This document shows positions 16,143 through 23,808 of a stretch of 37,337 bases of DNA, in pieces. The notes below the pieces were generated by a model. That model ran no database searches and was not told the DNA's origin. It saw nothing but the letters and a program-made list of their open reading frames with translations. Source of the DNA: Flavobacteriales bacterium (GTDB taxonomy: Bacteria > Bacteroidota > Bacteroidia > NS11-12g > UBA955); NCBI GenBank assembly GCA_947496375.1, contig CANMCY010000022.1:1-37337 (forward strand), given 5' to 3'. A program made the position numbers and the translations under genes. Every line of letters begins with the position of its first letter. Within the stretch, counting starts at the first letter, position 1.

Positions 16143-19100
16143 TTAGTTCTTTGGCCTCAATAGCAATATGCTGCCTTTATCTTGCCGGTTCGGAGTTTTT
16201 CTGCCCTTAAATTTAATGCGGTAAGCATAAACGCCTTCCGGACAATGGGTTCCCCTGTAAGTTCCATCCCAGAATTGAGATGCATTGTCACTCTTGAAAA
16301 CAATCTGTCCCCAGCGGTTATAAATGAGCATTTCAAATTCGGTTGCACCAATCACCACCGATTCAAGCTTATCATTAAAGCCATCATTGTTGGGCGTGAA
16401 TGCATTGGGTATATAATAGACCACCGTATCGCGGTAGCAATAATCTGCCTCTGCGCTGTCAGTGCATCCTCCTGCATTTTGCACCACAAGTTTCACACGG
16501 TATCGGTTCTTTTCGCCGTTGTAGAAATGCTTAGGGCTCATTCCCGGGTCGAAGGGTTCACTGCTGCCGTCTCCCCAGAACCAGGTGCCGGTTTCTGCGC
16601 CTACGCAATTATTGAAAATTCTTAGGTTGGGATAAATGGGACTCAGGCAGGCAGCACCATTGGGTATGCTGCCAATAAATGCTGCAGTGATGGCTTTGTA
16701 GCCGGGGATTTCAATGGTGGTATCCACAATACAGCCGGTTTTAAGGTTTACGGCAGTTACCCTATATTGATTGCCACTCAAGGCATTCAATGAATCACCG
16801 ATGTAAGCCGGACTTACATCCCAGGTAAAACGATAAGGCCCGGCGTCTTTCATACGGAGCTTAACCCACCCTTTTTGACCGAAGCAAACCGGAGGGGATG
16901 TGGTAGCCATAAAATAGGGCTTAGAATGCCTATAAATAGGCACAGCTGCTGTTGCCGGCTCACTGCACCCATCGGTAACTACTACATTGTAAACGGTGGT
17001 TGTAAGGGGGCTTACAAACGTTCCGTTGCCTGTTTGTCCGTTGCTCCAAGCAAATGAATAAGAAAACTTATCACCACCGGTGGCTGATGCGCGCAACCAT
17101 ACAATTTCACCCGGACAAATGGTATCGATTGGAGGATTCACCCTGACCTTCAGGGTGTCAATCACCGAAACGTTTACGGTAGTGGCAGCCGTGCAGGCGC
17201 CTGACACCAAGGTGTAGGTTAGCGTATGGGAGCCGCTGCCGGCCAAATAGGGGTTGAATTGATTGCCGGAGACACCATTCCCGGAAAAAACTCCTCCCGG
17301 TATATTGGCGATGAGGAGATAGGGGGTGTTTTTGAAACAAAAATCGGTTACCGGATTCACAAACCACAGGGAAGGAGCTGCATCAACCCGTATAAAGAAG
17401 TTAACGGTACAACCCCACTTGTTTCGGAATGTGACAACATGGTTGCCAGCGCCGGCTACTGCAGGGTTAAATGTGCCGAGAATGACATTGGTAATGCCTT
17501 TTCCACTAAAACTTCCTCCCGTTTCTCCAGCGCGGCAATTGAAAGCCGCTGTGTTAATACAAACAGCAGTATCGGTCTGGGCTGTAGGCCGCGGTCTTAC
17601 GAAGGCATTCAGGGTATCATTACATCCATTTTTATGATATACCAGCTTATGATGACCAAAACCGGCCAGGGCTGCAGTAAAGCCATTTACACCTGTAATG
17701 CCCGGTCCTGTCCAATATCCACCGTCAGGGCTTAAACCCAGCAAGGCATTGTTTAGTATGCGTACAGGGTTTTCTATGCAGAAAAACTGGGTGTCTTTTT
17801 TATTGATTTTGGTAGGAATCAAATGTACAAATTTCCGATCTGTACAAACCCCGTTGCGAAGCGTGAGCGTATCGATATAGGTGGCTTTACCCAGGGTAAA
17901 AAAGAAGGAAGGGTCGTAGTTGGGCGAACCGGGAGATACAATTCCTTTGCCTGTCCATGTGTAGTTGGCAGAAGGCCTGAAATTAGCCAGTACTTTCATA
18001 CCATTAGCCGGACAGAAAGTATCATTAGTGCCGGCTTCACTGGGTAGCACGGTCAAACGGGTGGTGTCTTTGCATCCGCCGCCATTCCATATAATTAATT
18101 TTGTTCCGGCACCGCCGGTCTGACTTGGATTGTACCATCCCCAGTAGGAATTGGTTAAACCCACAAACCAGTTAGGATAGATACCTTTGGGTGAAAATGT
18201 AAGAGTATCAGATGTTCTCGACTCGCAGGTGGTATCAAACTTAGGAACCACCATGTTTTCTACACGGATGGTTTTGACACTTTTACATCCTTTCCAGGTA
18301 TAAGTATCCTGATAGATTCCGGGAACATCCGGATTGAAAATTCCGGCAGACGTAATTTTAGGACCACTCCAGGTGCCTCCTAATGGACCATACCACCATA
18401 CGGCCTGAGGTGGTTTTCCCGGGCAGAAGACGTTTTCCAGGTTCCATGGCCCCACGCTGTTTACCATCACGGTATCTGCACAGCTACCTATCTTATACCA
18501 TACTTTGTTTTGACCCCACAATGTTGACGGTTTAAACTCACCGGAAAGTGAATTGACAATGCCGGAACCGTACCAACGTCCACCGGCCGGGGAAGCCCTC
18601 AGGAAAATGTTGGGACCGTAATAACATATTTCCGTATCGCCCATGGCAGCGGGTGGGTCCAAAACCACAATGTTGACGGTATCTGACGAAGGAATAGACG
18701 ATCCATCGGTAACCCTGAGTATGTACTGGGTATTCACGGTAGGACATATTCGATGTGGTCCTGCCCCTGAGAGCACAGGAGTCCATGTATAAACATATTT
18801 GGCGGGGTTTCCACCACTCACAGTAGACCTTAGAAAGGTGCAGCTACCCTTACAAATGGTGTCCGAATCAGCTTTAAGTAATACTTTAAGTGGGCAGTCT
18901 GAAACACTGAAAATTAATTTACTTTGTGTTAAATATACACTATCGCAGAAATCTTTCCAGTATACATTTAATTGAAAGGTGTAGTTGCCGTTCAAAAATA
19001 ATGCCCCCCCTGTATTTACGGTAAAGATTGTGGCCTTGCCTCCCGAGCAGTTATCCGGGGTGACGGATGTTATTCCAACGGCACCAAATGGCCCTGTCAG

Positions 19101-19637
19101 TGAACCCAGTATGGCTTTAATGCTGTCACAGGGAATGCTGCGGTTGCTATTTACCTTAAAAGAAGTAGCGTTACATTTTACGGTTCCATTAAGCGTAAAG
19201 ACCGGGGTAGGCGGCGGGATGATGGTAGTAATAATATCGGCTTCCCAGCCATAGCAGGCAACGCTTTTGTCCGATTTAAAATGAATGGTAATAAAGCTGT
19301 CCTTACTGATAATGGTACCCGGTCCCTTGCTTCCGGTCCATCTGCCTATTAACGGTGCAAATGTGTCTTTACCATCGAAAATACTAAGTACATCATTGTC
19401 TTTTTCTATACAGAACGATTTGAATTTAAGGGTGATGCTCTTAGCTCCCGGGACACTTAATGTGAGTGTGTAATTTTCATTGTGATCATAATCCCCTTTG
19501 GTTTTCCCTTTTTCACTATCCTTAAAAACGCCTTTGCAAACCCTAACCCGCCCGTTTTGCATGAAAACTTCGGTCTGCGCTGCCGAAAATTGCAACGAGC
19601 AAAGCAAAAGCACTATAAAGGTTAGCTTTTTCAGCAT
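16143..19637 (-). CDS. Giant secreted CUB/repeat/PKD protein with T9SS type B sorting domain
   Basis: 1164-aa secreted protein. Signal peptide 1-20 (FIVLLLCSLQFSAA). Residues of about 30-137 form a CUB-like domain (LTLSVPGAKSITLKFKSF, DVLSIFDGKD, FKSDKSVACYGWEA). Six degenerate copies of a ~32-residue unit, consensus GGxWSGxGI...FxPxxAGxGxHxLxY, start near residues 352, 420, 560, 639, 707 and 781. Ig-like and PKD-like regions follow, including FWGDGSSEPFDPG near 1020. The last ~90 residues (from YYIPNAFTPNNDGFND) are the gliding-motility-associated type B sorting domain, with EMLIYNRWGQIVF and GVYAYRIKF. It is exported by T9SS and probably attached to the surface. Its ATG overlaps the stop of the preceding lipoprotein gene (TGATG), so it is the last gene of the DUF1501-like operon. 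Confidence 0.93.
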   Translation of the reverse strand: MLKKLTFIVLLLCSLQFSAAQTEVFMQNGRVRVCKGVFKDSEKGKTKGDYDHNENYTLTLSVPGAKSITLKFKSFCIEKDNDVLSIFDGKDTFAPLIGRWTGSKGPGTIISKDSFITIHFKSDKSVACYGWEADIITTIIPPPTPVFTLNGTVKCNATSFKVNSNRSIPCDSIKAILGSLTGPFGAVGITSVTPDNCSGGKATIFTVNTGGALFLNGNYTFQLNVYWKDFCDSVYLTQSKLIFSVSDCPLKVLLKADSDTICKGSCTFLRSTVSGGNPAKYVYTWTPVLSGAGPHRICPTVNTQYILRVTDGSSIPSSDTVNIVVLDPPAAMGDTEICYYGPNIFLRASPAGGRWYGSGIVNSLSGEFKPSTLWGQNKVWYKIGSCADTVMVNSVGPWNLENVFCPGKPPQAVWWYGPLGGTWSGPKITSAGIFNPDVPGIYQDTYTWKGCKSVKTIRVENMVVPKFDTTCESRTSDTLTFSPKGIYPNWFVGLTNSYWGWYNPSQTGGAGTKLIIWNGGGCKDTTRLTVLPSEAGTNDTFCPANGMKVLANFRPSANYTWTGKGIVSPGSPNYDPSFFFTLGKATYIDTLTLRNGVCTDRKFVHLIPTKINKKDTQFFCIENPVRILNNALLGLSPDGGYWTGPGITGVNGFTAALAGFGHHKLVYHKNGCNDTLNAFVRPRPTAQTDTAVCINTAAFNCRAGETGGSFSGKGITNVILGTFNPAVAGAGNHVVTFRNKWGCTVNFFIRVDAAPSLWFVNPVTDFCFKNTPYLLIANIPGGVFSGNGVSGNQFNPYLAGSGSHTLTYTLVSGACTAATTVNVSVIDTLKVRVNPPIDTICPGEIVWLRASATGGDKFSYSFAWSNGQTGNGTFVSPLTTTVYNVVVTDGCSEPATAAVPIYRHSKPYFMATTSPPVCFGQKGWVKLRMKDAGPYRFTWDVSPAYIGDSLNALSGNQYRVTAVNLKTGCIVDTTIEIPGYKAITAAFIGSIPNGAACLSPIYPNLRIFNNCVGAETGTWFWGDGSSEPFDPGMSPKHFYNGEKNRYRVKLVVQNAGGCTDSAEADYCYRDTVVYYIPNAFTPNNDGFNDKLESVVIGATEFEMLIYNRWGQIVFKSDNASQFWDGTYRGTHCPEGVYAYRIKFKGRKTPNRQDKGSILLLRPKN
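17211..18584 (-). repeat. Six-copy internal protein repeat region
   Basis: Residues 352-809 of the T9SS type B protein carry six spaced copies of a ~32-residue unit. Examples of its opening: GGRWYGSGI, GGTWSGPKI, YTWTGKGI, GGYWTGPGI, GGSFSGKGI and GGVFSGNGV. Each continues with F-x-P and, in most copies, AGxGxH near its end. The copies are divergent at DNA level and separated by Cys-containing linkers, so this is an old protein repeat array and not a recent tandem duplication. Confidence 0.75.
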
Positions 19638-20083
19638 CAGCGTGTTATGATAACTTCCGGTGTTTTGATGGGATTACTCCAGTTGCCCGCCCTGTCCTGA
19701 ATCCGAACAGTGAAAGACGTGGTTTCTATATTGCCTGTGCCTAAAAGAAACACGTTTCTAAGGTTCATCGTCATTTGACCTTTAATGCGAATCTTCTCGC
19801 CTACAGGTGCCATAGGAGGTACGTAGTAATAATCCGGCTTGGCAAGTCGTTCGTCCTGAACTTCCAGACTGTTGATATCGGCATTGTCATTTCCCAGATC
19901 TCCGTCTCCATCCTCATAGGTAAAGGTAATCTTCAATGAATCTACAAACTGTTTAACTTGTGTGGGGGCTATTTTGACCAATGCAATACGCGGAACGGGG
20001 TTTCCGGTAGTGTTAAGTATTTCCTTGCAGCTATTTAACAGAGGAAACAACAACAATGATATACCTGTAATTACAATCCTCAT
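19637..20083 (-). CDS. Small lipoprotein of unknown function
   Basis: 148-aa predicted lipoprotein. The signal peptide ends in lipobox LNSC with Cys19. The mature part is beta-rich: TFTYEDGDGDLGND (about 53-66), a form often seen in Bacteroidota lipoproteins, then a hydrophobic-polar alternating C-terminus including TSFTVRIQDRAGNWSNP, an Ig/fibronectin-like strand pattern. No catalytic motif is visible. Its ATG overlaps the stop of the upstream cytochrome-like gene by 4 bp, and its stop overlaps the start of the T9SS protein. It is therefore translated in fixed order with both, and a structural or docking role next to the giant CUB protein is inferred. I do not recognise a named family. Confidence 0.85.
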   Translation of the reverse strand: MRIVITGISLLLFPLLNSCKEILNTTGNPVPRIALVKIAPTQVKQFVDSLKITFTYEDGDGDLGNDNADINSLEVQDERLAKPDYYYVPPMAPVGEKIRIKGQMTMNLRNVFLLGTGNIETTSFTVRIQDRAGNWSNPIKTPEVIITR

Positions 20084-21033
20084 GGTATTCTCAGGGCAAA
20101 GTATTTTTTCAGAAAGAACATGCTGTTTGTGTTTGGCAACTGATAATCGTTATTGATATTGTCACTGCAGGTAATCCTGAACCAAAGCACATCATAGGAT
20201 TGCATGCCTGCGGTGGAGAAGAGGAAATACCAGGCATAGGGGGTATTGGCAGCATATAATCCGGGTAGATTTTTAACGGCTCCCTTGATTAAGGGTTTTT
20301 CGTTGGATGGATCAAATTTCTCAGGATCTGTAGACCAATTGATGCTCATACCGGTAAGATTCTCCTGATTAAGGGCATCATCTGCCAGTGAAAACCAAAG
20401 TTCCAGATTTTGACCAGGTTGGGCAACCATGGGTTCATATTTACCGCCTCTTCCAATGGGAGTGCCATTTAACAAGGCCTGAACCCCCATAACCTGGGGT
20501 GGAAAATTGACCGGCCCGGGTTTATTGCCTTTGGAATCGGGAGCTCCTTTGTTAATCCACTGTTTCAGGTTATCGAGCAATTTGTCTTTTACAGCCGGAT
20601 AATTACTGCCCGGTTCCAGCGCCAACGGCATAATGCCGGAGTTTCCACCCAAATCCACTGTCATTCGGTAAATCAATATGCTTGCATCTGCATTGCCCGG
20701 CAAAACCCTGGCATTGAAGGTGCCCGCCTGATCATTTTTGATGGGCTTTACATTGACCAGAGAGGCAAACGAACTTTCCACTGTTCTGAAATCGGGCTCA
20801 AACGTTCCATCGTGGCAGCCACTGTTGGCGCAGGTAGGAGCAAAGAGATCTCTATGCAATCCCTGAATGCTGGTGGCATCGGCAGCCGAATCGCGGGATG
20901 TGGTGGTATCGCGGTTTATTTTAATGGGCTTACCAAAGGGATTGCCAATAGATGAACCCTCTTTTTTACATGCGATTCCAAACACGAGCAGGATTGCAAA
21001 TAATGCCGGTATCAATCGGGACTTATTCATCAC
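20080..21033 (-). CDS. Cytochrome-c-like lipoprotein (PSCyt1-like, CX4CH)
   Basis: 317-aa lipoprotein with lipobox GIAC (Cys22). Residues 60-165 resemble planctomycete-type cytochrome c domains: LFAPTCANSGCHDG (C68, C73, H74), then LPGNADASILIYRM, IMPLALEPG (Met135, possible axial ligand) and LKQWINKGAP. The heme-binding site has four residues between the cysteines (CX4CH) instead of the canonical two, so heme attachment is not assured. The C-terminal half (170-317) contains a beta domain, GVQALLNGTPIGRGGKYEP and LELWFSLADD, with no motif I can name. It overlaps both neighbours by 4 bp (ATGA). Likely role: redox or substrate-binding lipoprotein working with the Tat-exported DUF1501-like protein. 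Confidence 0.87.
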   Translation of the reverse strand: MMNKSRLIPALFAILLVFGIACKKEGSSIGNPFGKPIKINRDTTTSRDSAADATSIQGLHRDLFAPTCANSGCHDGTFEPDFRTVESSFASLVNVKPIKNDQAGTFNARVLPGNADASILIYRMTVDLGGNSGIMPLALEPGSNYPAVKDKLLDNLKQWINKGAPDSKGNKPGPVNFPPQVMGVQALLNGTPIGRGGKYEPMVAQPGQNLELWFSLADDALNQENLTGMSINWSTDPEKFDPSNEKPLIKGAVKNLPGLYAANTPYAWYFLFSTAGMQSYDVLWFRITCSDNINNDYQLPNTNSMFFLKKYFALRIP

Positions 21034-22382
21034 ATTCTCAGAAATAAGCTTTTAGACTGTGGATCGAGATATGGACTCGCCTTTACTTCATCGTATACAC
21101 CAAATATATCGGCAATGGTTGGCACAATATCAGTGAGTTTACCCACTTTATTGCCTTCGGAGCCCACCGATATTTTGGGAACATTCTTACCTACCATCAC
21201 CGACCATACCCGCATGGCATTGGCGTCGCTGTGGTCATAGGCATACCAGTCATTTTCATCCAAAATGGGATTGGGATTTAGATTTCTACCGCATTCCGGT
21301 GCAATTATCATGATGGTCTTGCCTGACATTTCAGGGATATTGTTCTGGATGTAATTCCAAAGCCATCCCACGGAGTGATCGGCGCGATGCAAACTGCGTA
21401 AATATCCTGTAAAGTTGCTGTGGCAACCGTCTACCGCACTCATGTTGAGGGTAAGGAACTTGGGCTTGAAATGGCGTAATACCTCGGCGGCATAGCTAAT
21501 CGTGACTGCATCACCATTGTCAGAAACCGGAGGACGGGGGATGAGACCCTGGTCCTGACGCTGAAATACAGCACGGATAAACTCCTTGATTTTGGTCTTT
21601 TCTTCGTCTGTGTTTTTTATGGTCTCCAATTGATTGGGATTCAGGCCAAAACTCTGATCCAAAAAATTCTTCATGAAGTACATGGGGTCCAGGTCCGCAC
21701 GGGAATAAGGTTTACCATTTCCCAGAATTTCTCTGCCCACGCCACCAAAGGTATACGGCGCTGCAAACATATTGCCCCCATACTGCAAGCCGTAATCTTC
21801 ATTTTTACTGCTATTTAGTAAAGGTGTACTGTTGCCAAGGCCGTTGGCTATGAACCAGGTATCCAATGCTGCAAATCCTGCATGTTTTCTCAGGTATTCA
21901 AAAATGGTTGGGTATTTGGGGCGTGTTTTCAAACCCTGTGCAGTTCCGAGACTGCCGGTAATCAGGGTGTTAAGTCCCACATAGTGCCCTGCACTTATTG
22001 CCGACATTTCTTTGAACACCGCTCCGGTATCTTCCATGCTCTGACTAAGTATACGGGGAATGGGCTCGCTCCCTCGGGTTGCTCCGCCACCGGGGTCCGT
22101 ACCATACACAATCTTGCGATCCGGCGCGATGCCTGTAAACAGGTTGGGCATAATATTGCCAGCAGCTCCGGTCACCTCCTGACTGTCATCCAGATATCGT
22201 TGCAACACGCTTTCCTGTTGCCTAACACCACCGGCAAACATAACCATGACCACATATTCCGCCTTGGGTGCGTTGGTGCGCGCAAACATTCTACCCGTGG
22301 GGAGTATATAGGGAGCAGCCACCGTGCCGGCTGTTACCATTCCTGTTTTTTTGAAAAAATCTCTTCTGTTCATGGGTTTCAA
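21030..22382 (-). CDS. Tat-exported DUF1501-like protein (alkaline phosphatase-like fold)
   Basis: 450-aa protein. The N-terminus MKPMNRRDFFKKTG is a twin-arginine signal (R6-R7), followed by a hydrophobic MVTAGTVAAPYILP. The body fits DUF1501-type proteins, which belong to the alkaline phosphatase/sulfatase-like fold: YVVMVMFAGGVRQQ as first strand, FLTLNMSAVDGCHSN in the middle, TIMIIAPECGRNLNPNP, then AYDHSDANAMRVW and VGKLTDIVPTIADIFGV near the C-terminus. No sulfatase-type formylglycine motif CxPxR is visible. In planctomycetes, DUF1501 genes sit beside PSCyt1/DUF1549/DUF1553 genes; here the neighbours are a PSCyt1-like and two DUF1549-like lipoproteins. The periplasmic substrate is unknown. 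It abuts the upstream gene without a gap and overlaps the downstream one by 4 bp. Confidence 0.87.
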   Translation of the reverse strand: MKPMNRRDFFKKTGMVTAGTVAAPYILPTGRMFARTNAPKAEYVVMVMFAGGVRQQESVLQRYLDDSQEVTGAAGNIMPNLFTGIAPDRKIVYGTDPGGGATRGSEPIPRILSQSMEDTGAVFKEMSAISAGHYVGLNTLITGSLGTAQGLKTRPKYPTIFEYLRKHAGFAALDTWFIANGLGNSTPLLNSSKNEDYGLQYGGNMFAAPYTFGGVGREILGNGKPYSRADLDPMYFMKNFLDQSFGLNPNQLETIKNTDEEKTKIKEFIRAVFQRQDQGLIPRPPVSDNGDAVTISYAAEVLRHFKPKFLTLNMSAVDGCHSNFTGYLRSLHRADHSVGWLWNYIQNNIPEMSGKTIMIIAPECGRNLNPNPILDENDWYAYDHSDANAMRVWSVMVGKNVPKISVGSEGNKVGKLTDIVPTIADIFGVYDEVKASPYLDPQSKSLFLRM

Positions 22383-22880
22383 TTAATAGTATTGGTATTC
22401 ATCGCTTACCGAAAAAGCGGTGTAAACCATTTCTACCGATACGTTGGGATTGCTGTTGATGTAGTTGATAAAGAAGGTCTTTTCCCCTTCAGACGGGTAT
22501 CTTAGAAAAAATCGCTTGTAGCACTTTTCGACAAAAGCAGCCACATCAGCCCGCATTTCACTGTCTTTGGGAATCTTTAATGTTGAAGTGTTGAAGTAAT
22601 TACTCAATACCATTTCATTGGCTACATTTCTGTCGCCAATGCTGTAAATCACATTTTGCGTTTTATACAGCTGGTTGGGAGAGATGGGCACCTGATACAG
22701 ATTGGTGTATAGAATAGAGATATACTCCGCATCCGATTTGCGCTTGGTTTTTAAGCTCTTATCTTCATATACAACCTTGTCATTGACACCAAAGGTTACA
22801 TTCTTCTCTTTGGTACAACCCGCTATCAGCAGCATTGTCATAACAAAGGCGGCGGTTATGTTTTTACCTGAATTGTGCAT
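22383..22880 (-). CDS. Lipoprotein with DUF1549/DUF4214-like unit
   Basis: 165-aa lipoprotein: lipobox IAGC with Cys22. An N-terminal unit around 52-70 (YISILYTNLYQVPISPNQ) and a better one at 116-133 (FVEKCYKRFFLRYPSEGE) match the pattern Y-x-x-LL-x-R-x-P-x-x-x-E. The second is followed by a final SVSDEYQYY. This is the same arrangement as in the next gene upstream, so the two are probably paralogues. The pattern is shared with DUF1549 and DUF4214, and I cannot decide between them. It overlaps the upstream gene by 17 bp and its stop abuts the next start. Periplasmic or surface-anchored; function unknown. Confidence 0.83.
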   Translation of the reverse strand: MHNSGKNITAAFVMTMLLIAGCTKEKNVTFGVNDKVVYEDKSLKTKRKSDAEYISILYTNLYQVPISPNQLYKTQNVIYSIGDRNVANEMVLSNYFNTSTLKIPKDSEMRADVAAFVEKCYKRFFLRYPSEGEKTFFINYINSNPNVSVEMVYTAFSVSDEYQYY

Positions 22881-23808
22881 ATTCGTCGGTTTTAATTACG
22901 GCTTTTTGAACTTCCTGTAAGTTATTGCTGCGCATATAGTTTCCCAGCAGGTTGATAACTTCCTGAGTATTGGCGTCTCTCTGGAGAAGGAGGTAATAAA
23001 CCCAGCGTATTTGTGCTTCATAGAACTCGGGTGTATGCGTTAAGACATCGCAGTATTCATTTTTGTTGGCTGCCCATCTTCCAAAAATTTGCCGGGGTAT
23101 GTTTTTGTCTATAATGTCATAGGCAGCCGTAAACTCGTTTTTCAGCGGCTGCCGTTGAAACAAATCATCAAAACTGGCGTTCACATAGTTAAAACTGTTC
23201 ATGTTGATTTGATCGTAAATAGAATTATTGAGCATAGCAGCGCACATATCGCTGTAGGTGGCCGTATTTTTTAATAATTTGTAGCGGCTGTTCAGCACAT
23301 CTCTGTATTGTTTTTGGGCTGCCTTTGCCGAATAGACACCAACAGAGTCGCCATTTAACCTTGATATTGTGATGCTAAACTCTAGAATTCCGATATTCTG
23401 AGCAATATCATCATCGCTGGCCCCTTCAAGAAATCTAGCCTTACTTAAGTCATAAATGCGCTGAATGGCTGCATGCCGGTAGCTGGAATCGCCGGGATGA
23501 TAAACAGTGTCATACAACAACTGATTGATAAGGGTGTCCCTTGAATGTATGCTCAGTTTGTTTCTTTTTAAGAATTCAGTGTGGTAAACCCGCTCTGTGT
23601 CAGTAGGTTCCCGTCCAAGCAAATCGATAAAATATCGATTTACATAGTTTTCTACCTTGATGGTAGGCACAGAACGATAGTCAGGCGGCTGGTTGCCCGT
23701 TATGAGAATGTCTTCTGTCTTCGTACACGAGGATATCAGCAGAAAAACAAAGCTGAAGGGGAGGGTAAACTTCAACACTATCACAATTTTAACCAAAAAA
23801 AATGACAT
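22864..23808 (-). CDS. Lipoprotein with three DUF1549/DUF4214-like units, first gene of the operon
   Basis: 314-aa lipoprotein; lipobox ISSC with Cys28, followed by TKTED. Residues 55-105 (NRYFIDLLGREPTDTE, then a helix ending INQLLYDTVY) resemble the start of DUF1549 from planctomycetes. Two weaker copies occur at 208-225 (YVNASFDDLFQRQPLKNE, later HTPEFYE) and 268-283 (RWVYYLLLQRDANTQE, later KTDEYAQF). The body is helical and charged. The ATG at 23808 gives an unusually long n-region; the in-frame TTG at 23775 (LKFTLPFSFVFLLISSC) would give a more typical lipoprotein signal. This is the promoter-proximal gene of the DUF1501-like operon, divergent from hmgA. Role unknown; inferred scaffold or binding component. 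Confidence 0.84.
   Translation of the reverse strand: MSFFLVKIVIVLKFTLPFSFVFLLISSCTKTEDILITGNQPPDYRSVPTIKVENYVNRYFIDLLGREPTDTERVYHTEFLKRNKLSIHSRDTLINQLLYDTVYHPGDSSYRHAAIQRIYDLSKARFLEGASDDDIAQNIGILEFSITISRLNGDSVGVYSAKAAQKQYRDVLNSRYKLLKNTATYSDMCAAMLNNSIYDQINMNSFNYVNASFDDLFQRQPLKNEFTAAYDIIDKNIPRQIFGRWAANKNEYCDVLTHTPEFYEAQIRWVYYLLLQRDANTQEVINLLGNYMRSNNLQEVQKAVIKTDEYAQFR

Follow-up and report, generated by a model that had tools for sequence, protein, structure and literature searches.

Can a protein whose only candidate heme motif separates its two cysteines by four residues, not two, be a working cytochrome c, or has such a domain given up its heme? One gene raises this question in the stretch of DNA that we analysed (hereafter the window), the 37,337 nucleotides of contig CANMCY010000022.1 from the Flavobacteriales bacterium assembly GCA_947496375.1. 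The gene lies on the minus strand (20080..21033) and encodes a CX4CH cytochrome c-like lipoprotein of 317 amino acids if translation begins at GTG, or of 316 if it begins at the ATG at 21030; the ATG (21030-21028), which overlaps the stop codon of the upstream gene as TGATG, seems the likelier start. An earlier note on this DNA had numbered C68, C73, H74 and M135 and quoted the stretches LPGNADASILIYRM and WINKGAP, all of which are correct in the translation, and had singled out C68-A-N-S-G-C73-H74 (20812..20832, minus strand) as the sole heme-motif candidate. Indeed, the 317-residue protein contains no C-x(2-5)-CH other than CANSGCH (residues 68-74).

Two further residues frame the motif. Toward the N terminus is Cys22 (20968..20970, minus strand), which fits the lipobox consensus and is the predicted membrane anchor; 141 of 145 aligned homologues have a cysteine there, and the remaining four a gap or X. 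Toward the C terminus is Met135 (20629..20631, minus strand), the presumed distal heme ligand, which stands in an invariant Met-Pro. We consider it highly probable that the protein is a true c-type cytochrome of the PSCyt1 kind, with a single heme and an unvarying CX4CH motif.

Conservation of the predicted heme site among homologues

A CX4CH motif by itself is worthless as evidence, because patterns of this kind match frequently, and match a rhodanese among other things: the bare CX4CH pattern had 299 matches in the DNA of the genome versus 129 for a reversed control, and a C-A-x-x-G-C-H-like pattern had four versus none, one of the four being the rhodanese. In that gene (L066:4610-5626, minus strand), CANTGCH lies within the C-terminal domain of a rhodanese, so that motif counts would wrongly include a protein that is not a cytochrome. 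We therefore relied on conservation. The query search gave matches in 54 of the 70 genomes of its own family, and the query's profile gave matches in 83 of the 295 genomes of its class, with 93 places at E 1.7e-38 or better. Two of these 93 places, all of which were read, repeat entries of the family set, which itself supplied 54 of its 55 places; together they give 145 distinct homologues, and over the cytochrome domain these share 34 to 100% identity with the query. Left out were L002-L007 (by their length the same contigs as G034-G039), L070 and L073 (repeats of own genome, G047), a 60-residue fragment in G019 (C11, E 1.4e-9) and 15 weaker places (E 2.1e-11 to 4.7e-6). Among these 15, L159 is a C-terminal fragment that lacks the motif region, and the remaining 14 are other proteins, 13 of them with CX4CH and one with CX3CH (L151, CTIGCH); a further frame in L153 also has CX3CH (CATGCH).

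Across the 145 homologues, C68, C73, H74, R123, M135, P136, W159 and G163 were identical without exception. The spacing of the two cysteines was always four, across 28 forms of the motif, and the canonical CXXCH spacing never occurred. Besides these invariant sites, the lipobox cysteine and H60, no Cys, His or Met column was conserved in at least 40% of the homologues. We therefore rejected the idea of a chance motif, C68, C73, H74 and M135 being identical in every member of the set. The earlier note had named homologues without the cysteine pair or Met135 as the observation that would count against its reading, and the alignment contained none. Conservation of this kind is what one would predict for a His/Met heme c protein and not for a relic, and because both cysteines, the histidine and Met135 are kept in the whole set, always as CX4CH, loss of heme is very unlikely.

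Relationship to PSCyt1 domains and predicted structure

Standard models gave no name to the protein. No Pfam model matched the query at E up to 1, the Pfam cytochrome models, PSCyt1 (PF07635) included, matched none of 69 family members at E up to 0.1, and the best NCBIfam model, that of a diheme cytochrome, reached E 0.005 with 16 of 313 bits, far under its cut-off. We aligned the profile of the cytochrome domain (residues 48-178; 20500..20892, minus strand), using hhalign, with 17 PF07635-positive stretches, taken from the 30 best-match stretches that we read in class genomes. The two matched with 98.7% probability (E 1.6e-16); CX4CH fell on the heme motif, lining up with CXXCH, Met135 on the methionine of the PSCyt1 'MPP', and the WI..GA framework aligned. 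The earlier note was right to see a framework like that of PSCyt1, a CX4CH site and a methionine of the axial type, the last of which is present in 145 of 145 homologues.

The query's own genome also encodes a diheme PSCyt1 protein, which matched the domain with 96.6% probability (E 6.7e-10) and in which site 1 is CAKSGCH and site 2 is CIGCH. On the strength of the profile alignments and of this mixed protein, we regard CX4CH and CXXCH as two forms of one domain. What the query family has in common with PSCyt1 is the position of the heme motif, the Met-Pro and the WI..GA framework; it differs in having four residues instead of two between the cysteines, escapes the Pfam model and, unlike PSCyt1, is a lipoprotein bearing a C-terminal beta-sandwich.

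Modelled alone by AlphaFold2 and without heme, residues 48-178 formed a small helical domain (pLDDT 89, pTM 0.86). About residues 175-317 (20083..20511, minus strand) were modelled as an Ig-like beta-sandwich in a model of mean pLDDT 90, and the best fold match of this part had a Z score of 8.7 over 104 residues with an rmsd of 3.0; the Ig-like beta-sandwich is a common arrangement and implies no function. It was because a fold search with the full model informed only on the beta-sandwich that we modelled the cytochrome domain separately. Searching solved structures with that domain model, Foldseek gave no significant match. VIA-align, run against six chains, listed FoxE as its sole entry, with a Z of 6.5 that falls under the program's own caution level (rmsd 3.0, 85 aligned residues). 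FoxE was also the top profile match among solved structures, at a non-significant E of 0.042 and over the Met/WI..GA part only, not the heme motif. A phmmer search of solved structures with the single domain produced just an esterase match, which we judged to be due to chance. FoxE (PDB 5MAB) is a diheme iron oxidase cytochrome with His/Met hemes, the ligation that we presume for the query; passages of one paper on FoxE give it CXXCH motifs and two hemes (PMC10654088), in contrast to the query's single CX4CH, and, unlike for FoxE, nothing found for the query protein points to iron oxidation.

Cysteine spacing of PSCyt1 domains in the class

The earlier note had called CX4CH a rare variant of the heme c motif, which is wrong for this lineage. 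We searched 60 class genomes with PF07635, obtained a match at E 0.01 or better in 38, and read the best match in 30 of the 38; 28 of these 30 matches were over the Pfam cut-off. The spacing was CX4CH in 25 of the 30 best matches read, CXXCH in four and CX3CH in one. Of the other eight genomes, G125 was read, and its only PF07635 match is CXXCH (CIGCH). One further PF07635 match, read in G100, is CATSGCH.

The CX4CH domain also occurs in other kinds of protein. Three such proteins, with CATSGCH or CAISGCH (L141:1023-2390, minus strand; L143:2156-3484, plus strand; L147:1553-2971, plus strand), also match the copper type II monooxygenase C-terminal domain. Four proteins of 558-589 residues have a type IX sorting tail (Por_Secre_tail) and are candidate secreted cytochromes; the motif is CX4CH in three (L144:409-2175 and L145:403-2121, minus strand; L152:1537-3288, plus strand) and CX3CH in the fourth (L151:1675-3348, plus strand). 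Family f52 (L104:2782-3519, plus strand; L106:2903-3715, minus strand; L109:3844-4659, plus strand) has a CX4CH domain in frames of 246-272 residues, and because the frames are of this length and the profile covers the cytochrome part only, the beta-sandwich seems to have been lost or replaced there. Neither the plasmid records nor the viral contigs that we searched contained a relative of the query.

Cytochrome c maturation genes

In the query's own genome, CcmC-, CcmE- and CcmF-like genes lie side by side. An 880-residue protein adjoining CcmE matches PF01578 and CcmF_C and is CcmF-like; a 352-residue protein adjoining CcmE matches PF01578, the name CcmC resting on its size and place. Searches of this genome for ResB and for CcmH (PF03918) found neither. 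The CcmE motif is CPSKY, with cysteine in the first position of the [CH]xxxY pattern, where E. coli has histidine. Taken together, the searches for CcmC, CcmE, CcmF, CcmH and ResB give a set of genes that looks like System I*, for which passages of a paper on these systems describe a cysteine in CcmE and no CcmH (PMC3601427), as in the query's own genome.

CcmE was found in 240 of the 295 class genomes and ResB in 46 (41 over the cut-off), and CcmH (PF03918) over the cut-off in none, the control search being positive in 4 of 14 known genomes; the sole CcmH match at E 0.001 or better in the 295 genomes, in G164 (5.7e-4), was under the cut-off. The CcmE motif was CPSKY in all 41 sequences that we read, from the query's own genome, 20 family-positive genomes and 20 family-negative genomes, the 40 others having been taken from the higher-scoring of the 240 matches. 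When the lists were compared by eye, CcmE was present in 64 of the 73 genomes that hold a full-length family member. Five of the nine without it are 70-83% complete, and two (G081 and G236) still have a CcmF-sized match. In the last two, G125 and G309, ResB and CcsA are fused into one protein of about 1,120 residues, yet CSTPGCH is kept; G100 likewise has ResB and no CcmE, with CATSGCH in a protein other than the query family.

Because only System II was found in G125, G309 and G100, System I* is the usual background but not the sole one. The same three genomes speak against the proposition that CX4CH requires System I*, which we rejected; the PF07635 match of G125 is for its part CXXCH. Of the earlier note's suggestion that heme might be attached by a non-standard route, one half stands, in that the general maturation genes are System I*-like, with no CcmH and a Cys-type CcmE; what the Ccm and ResB searches found points to the general c-type maturation of the genome, not to a lyase dedicated to this protein.

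The lipoprotein gene cluster

The cytochrome gene belongs to a run of six minus-strand genes that abut or overlap from 23808 down to 16143. The first of them (22864..23808) encodes a 314-residue lipoprotein distantly like DUF4214 and PSCyt2/PSD1 (DUF1549/DUF1553); the window's copy has no match to the PSCyt2/PSD1 Pfam models, and among members of its family PSCyt2 and PSD1 match in 5 of 23 each (best E 3.8e-4 and 3.2e-4) and DUF4214 in 18 of 23. Next come a DUF4214-like lipoprotein (22383..22880; E 1.2e-4, 22.5 bits versus a cut-off of 23.2) and, directly upstream of the cytochrome gene and sharing the TGATG overlap with it, a gene for a DUF1501-like or alkaline-phosphatase-superfamily-like protein with a Tat-like N-terminus (21030..22382). 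The last of these is weakly named: the window's copy has no match to the DUF1501 Pfam model (PF07394), its family members match DUF1501 in 3 of 29 (best E 0.0019) and Phosphodiest, Sulfatase and PehA in 4 of 29 each, and the only match among solved structures was to a sulfatase and non-significant (E 0.56). The Tat model reached E 0.049 on the window's copy, under the cut-off, and an NCBIfam Tat match was present in 11 of the 29 members. Downstream of the cytochrome gene, and overlapping it as ATGA, is a gene for a 148-residue lipoprotein (19637..20083), and the cluster ends with a CUB and CHU_C type IX sorting domain protein (16143..19637; Pfam CHU_C 2.4e-19, CUB 3.1e-11).

Neighbours were counted at 126 loci besides the window, without 18 later loci, where they lay on the same strand, on the right side and within the fetched stretch, and the family was split by motif into group A (xSGC-like, 91 loci) and group B (35 loci). 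Among loci with enough flank, the DUF1501-like gene was upstream in 87 of 88 in A and 33 of 35 in B. The DUF4214-like neighbour was present in 32/32 and 31/34, the 314-residue lipoprotein in 29/29 and 24/26, and the 148-residue lipoprotein downstream in 88/89 and 32/34, respectively. The CHU_C protein was downstream in 78 of 81 A loci versus 1 of 29 B loci, and one B locus, L133, has none of the neighbours. The lipoprotein operon thus occurs in the class in two versions, with and without the CUB/CHU_C protein. Several genomes, such as G078, G115, G118 and G253, have two matches. In the near relative G035 (L025:1480-2091, plus strand), the cytochrome frame is shortened to 204 residues and runs at its end into the CHU_C frame, and no 148-residue lipoprotein was found at the locus, the result of a deletion or of an assembly fault.

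DUF1501 is one of the families found next to PSCyt genes, and the query's gene, too, sits among weakly named families. Passages of one study describe the PSCyt2- and PSCyt3-encoding genes of Verrucomicrobia as adjoining families of unknown genes, and PSCyt gene sets as of unknown function with a suggested role with carbohydrates (PMC5615132). We infer that, in Bacteroidota, the lipoprotein operon with its DUF1501-like protein corresponds to the unexplained PSCyt gene sets of planctomycetes.

Alternative explanations

The spacing departs from CXXCH and no Pfam cytochrome model matches the family, as would suit a domain that has lost its heme to become a mere binding module, with the cysteine pair serving as a disulfide or left as a relic. 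We consider this outcome, which the earlier note had offered as one of two, very improbable: C, C, H and M persist in 145 of 145 homologues down to 34% domain identity, whereas a relic would lose its His or Met somewhere, and CX4CH is found as well in proteins that match PSCyt1 above the cut-off. Instead of heme, the site might bind a metal, for instance Zn or Cu, with C68, C73 and H74 as ligands and perhaps H60 or M135 in addition. H60 is indeed well conserved (134 of 145), and the rhodanese CX4CH of the same genome shows that the motif alone proves nothing, but H60 becomes Y, Q or T in the other 11 homologues and the Met-Pro and WI..GA framework matches that of PSCyt1 cytochromes, which makes a metal site improbable.

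The protein might also carry heme on one thioether only, or attached abnormally, if the synthase were unable to bridge four residues. In the classical Ccm system, according to passages of PMC3601427, altered cysteine spacing leads to an additional sulfur and the reaction 'goes wrong', and an in vitro study found CcsBA to be demanding about CXXCH thiols (PMC8112865, the searched text of which had no match for tests of CcsBA with other spacings). Against this, both cysteines are invariant, and heme c on CXXXXCH is known from nature: in MmcA of the archaeon Methanosarcina, mass spectrometry showed heme c attached to CXXXCH as well as CXXXXCH peptides (passages of PMC11024163). Attachment of this abnormal kind is a very unlikely account of the family.

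Discussion

The best reading of the protein is a membrane-anchored His/Met cytochrome c that serves its own operon. From the sequence, its conservation, the gene cluster and the maturation genes we infer heme attachment, ligation and electron transfer. The protein would be exported and lipidated on Cys22, and the general maturation machinery, System I*-like with its CcmC- and CcmF-like proteins, its Cys-type CcmE and no CcmH found, would attach heme to both Cys68 and Cys73 even though two more residues than usual lie between them. His74 would be the proximal ligand and Met135 the distal one, as their conservation suggests, and the C-terminal beta-sandwich may be a docking or spacing domain. 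So anchored, the cytochrome would pass electrons for the proteins encoded in its operon, above all the DUF1501-like one and the three other lipoproteins, the partners to which gene order points. This physiological role is the least certain part of the reading; judged by its sequence, the CX4CH protein very probably works as a cytochrome that carries electrons and is no relic.

Cytochrome c3, a Desulfovibrio protein, and MmcA resemble the query in having CXXXXCH, and the CXXXY CcmE of Desulfovibrio desulfuricans and of M. acetivorans, the host of MmcA, resembles that of the query's own genome; both proteins are multiheme, whereas the query is a lipoprotein with one heme site, for which a methionine is the presumed ligand. 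Passages of two papers record two CXXXXCH motifs in cytochrome c3 (PMC10454114) and a CcmE with CXXXY in M. acetivorans and Desulfovibrio desulfuricans (PMC9084895). We propose, tentatively and with more doubt than confidence, that CX4CH is the normal PSCyt1-domain motif in the class, paired with a CcmH-less, Cys-type-CcmE system as in Desulfovibrio and Methanosarcina. If this is true, System I* would be the machinery that handles wide-spaced cysteines, and the ResB-CcsA of G125 and G309 (CSTPGCH) and of G100 (CATSGCH) would take CX4CH as well, so that the published view of CcsBA as demanding about its motif would have to be broadened. The pattern raises a testable question, namely which of the cytochrome c synthases tolerate a cysteine spacing of four residues.

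In passages of iron-oxidiser surveys, CX3CH and CX4CH are already included among the heme sites (PMC5566968, PMC10734462). Our searches of open-licence PMC papers turned up none that describes CX4CH as the motif usually found in the PSCyt1 domain; passages of PMC11495043 mention PSCyt1 just as a search label, and the searched text of PMC3884852 had no match for cysteine-spacing terms. In the class sample that we read, the supposedly rare motif is the rule for this domain and comes with a fitting maturation system. The function of the planctomycete PSCyt gene sets may be easier to find in the Bacteroidota operon. Programs that count CXXCH alone will overlook many of the PSCyt1-type cytochromes in this class, CX4CH being the motif in 25 of the 30 best matches read, and for this reason the electron-transfer capacity of the class may be under-annotated.
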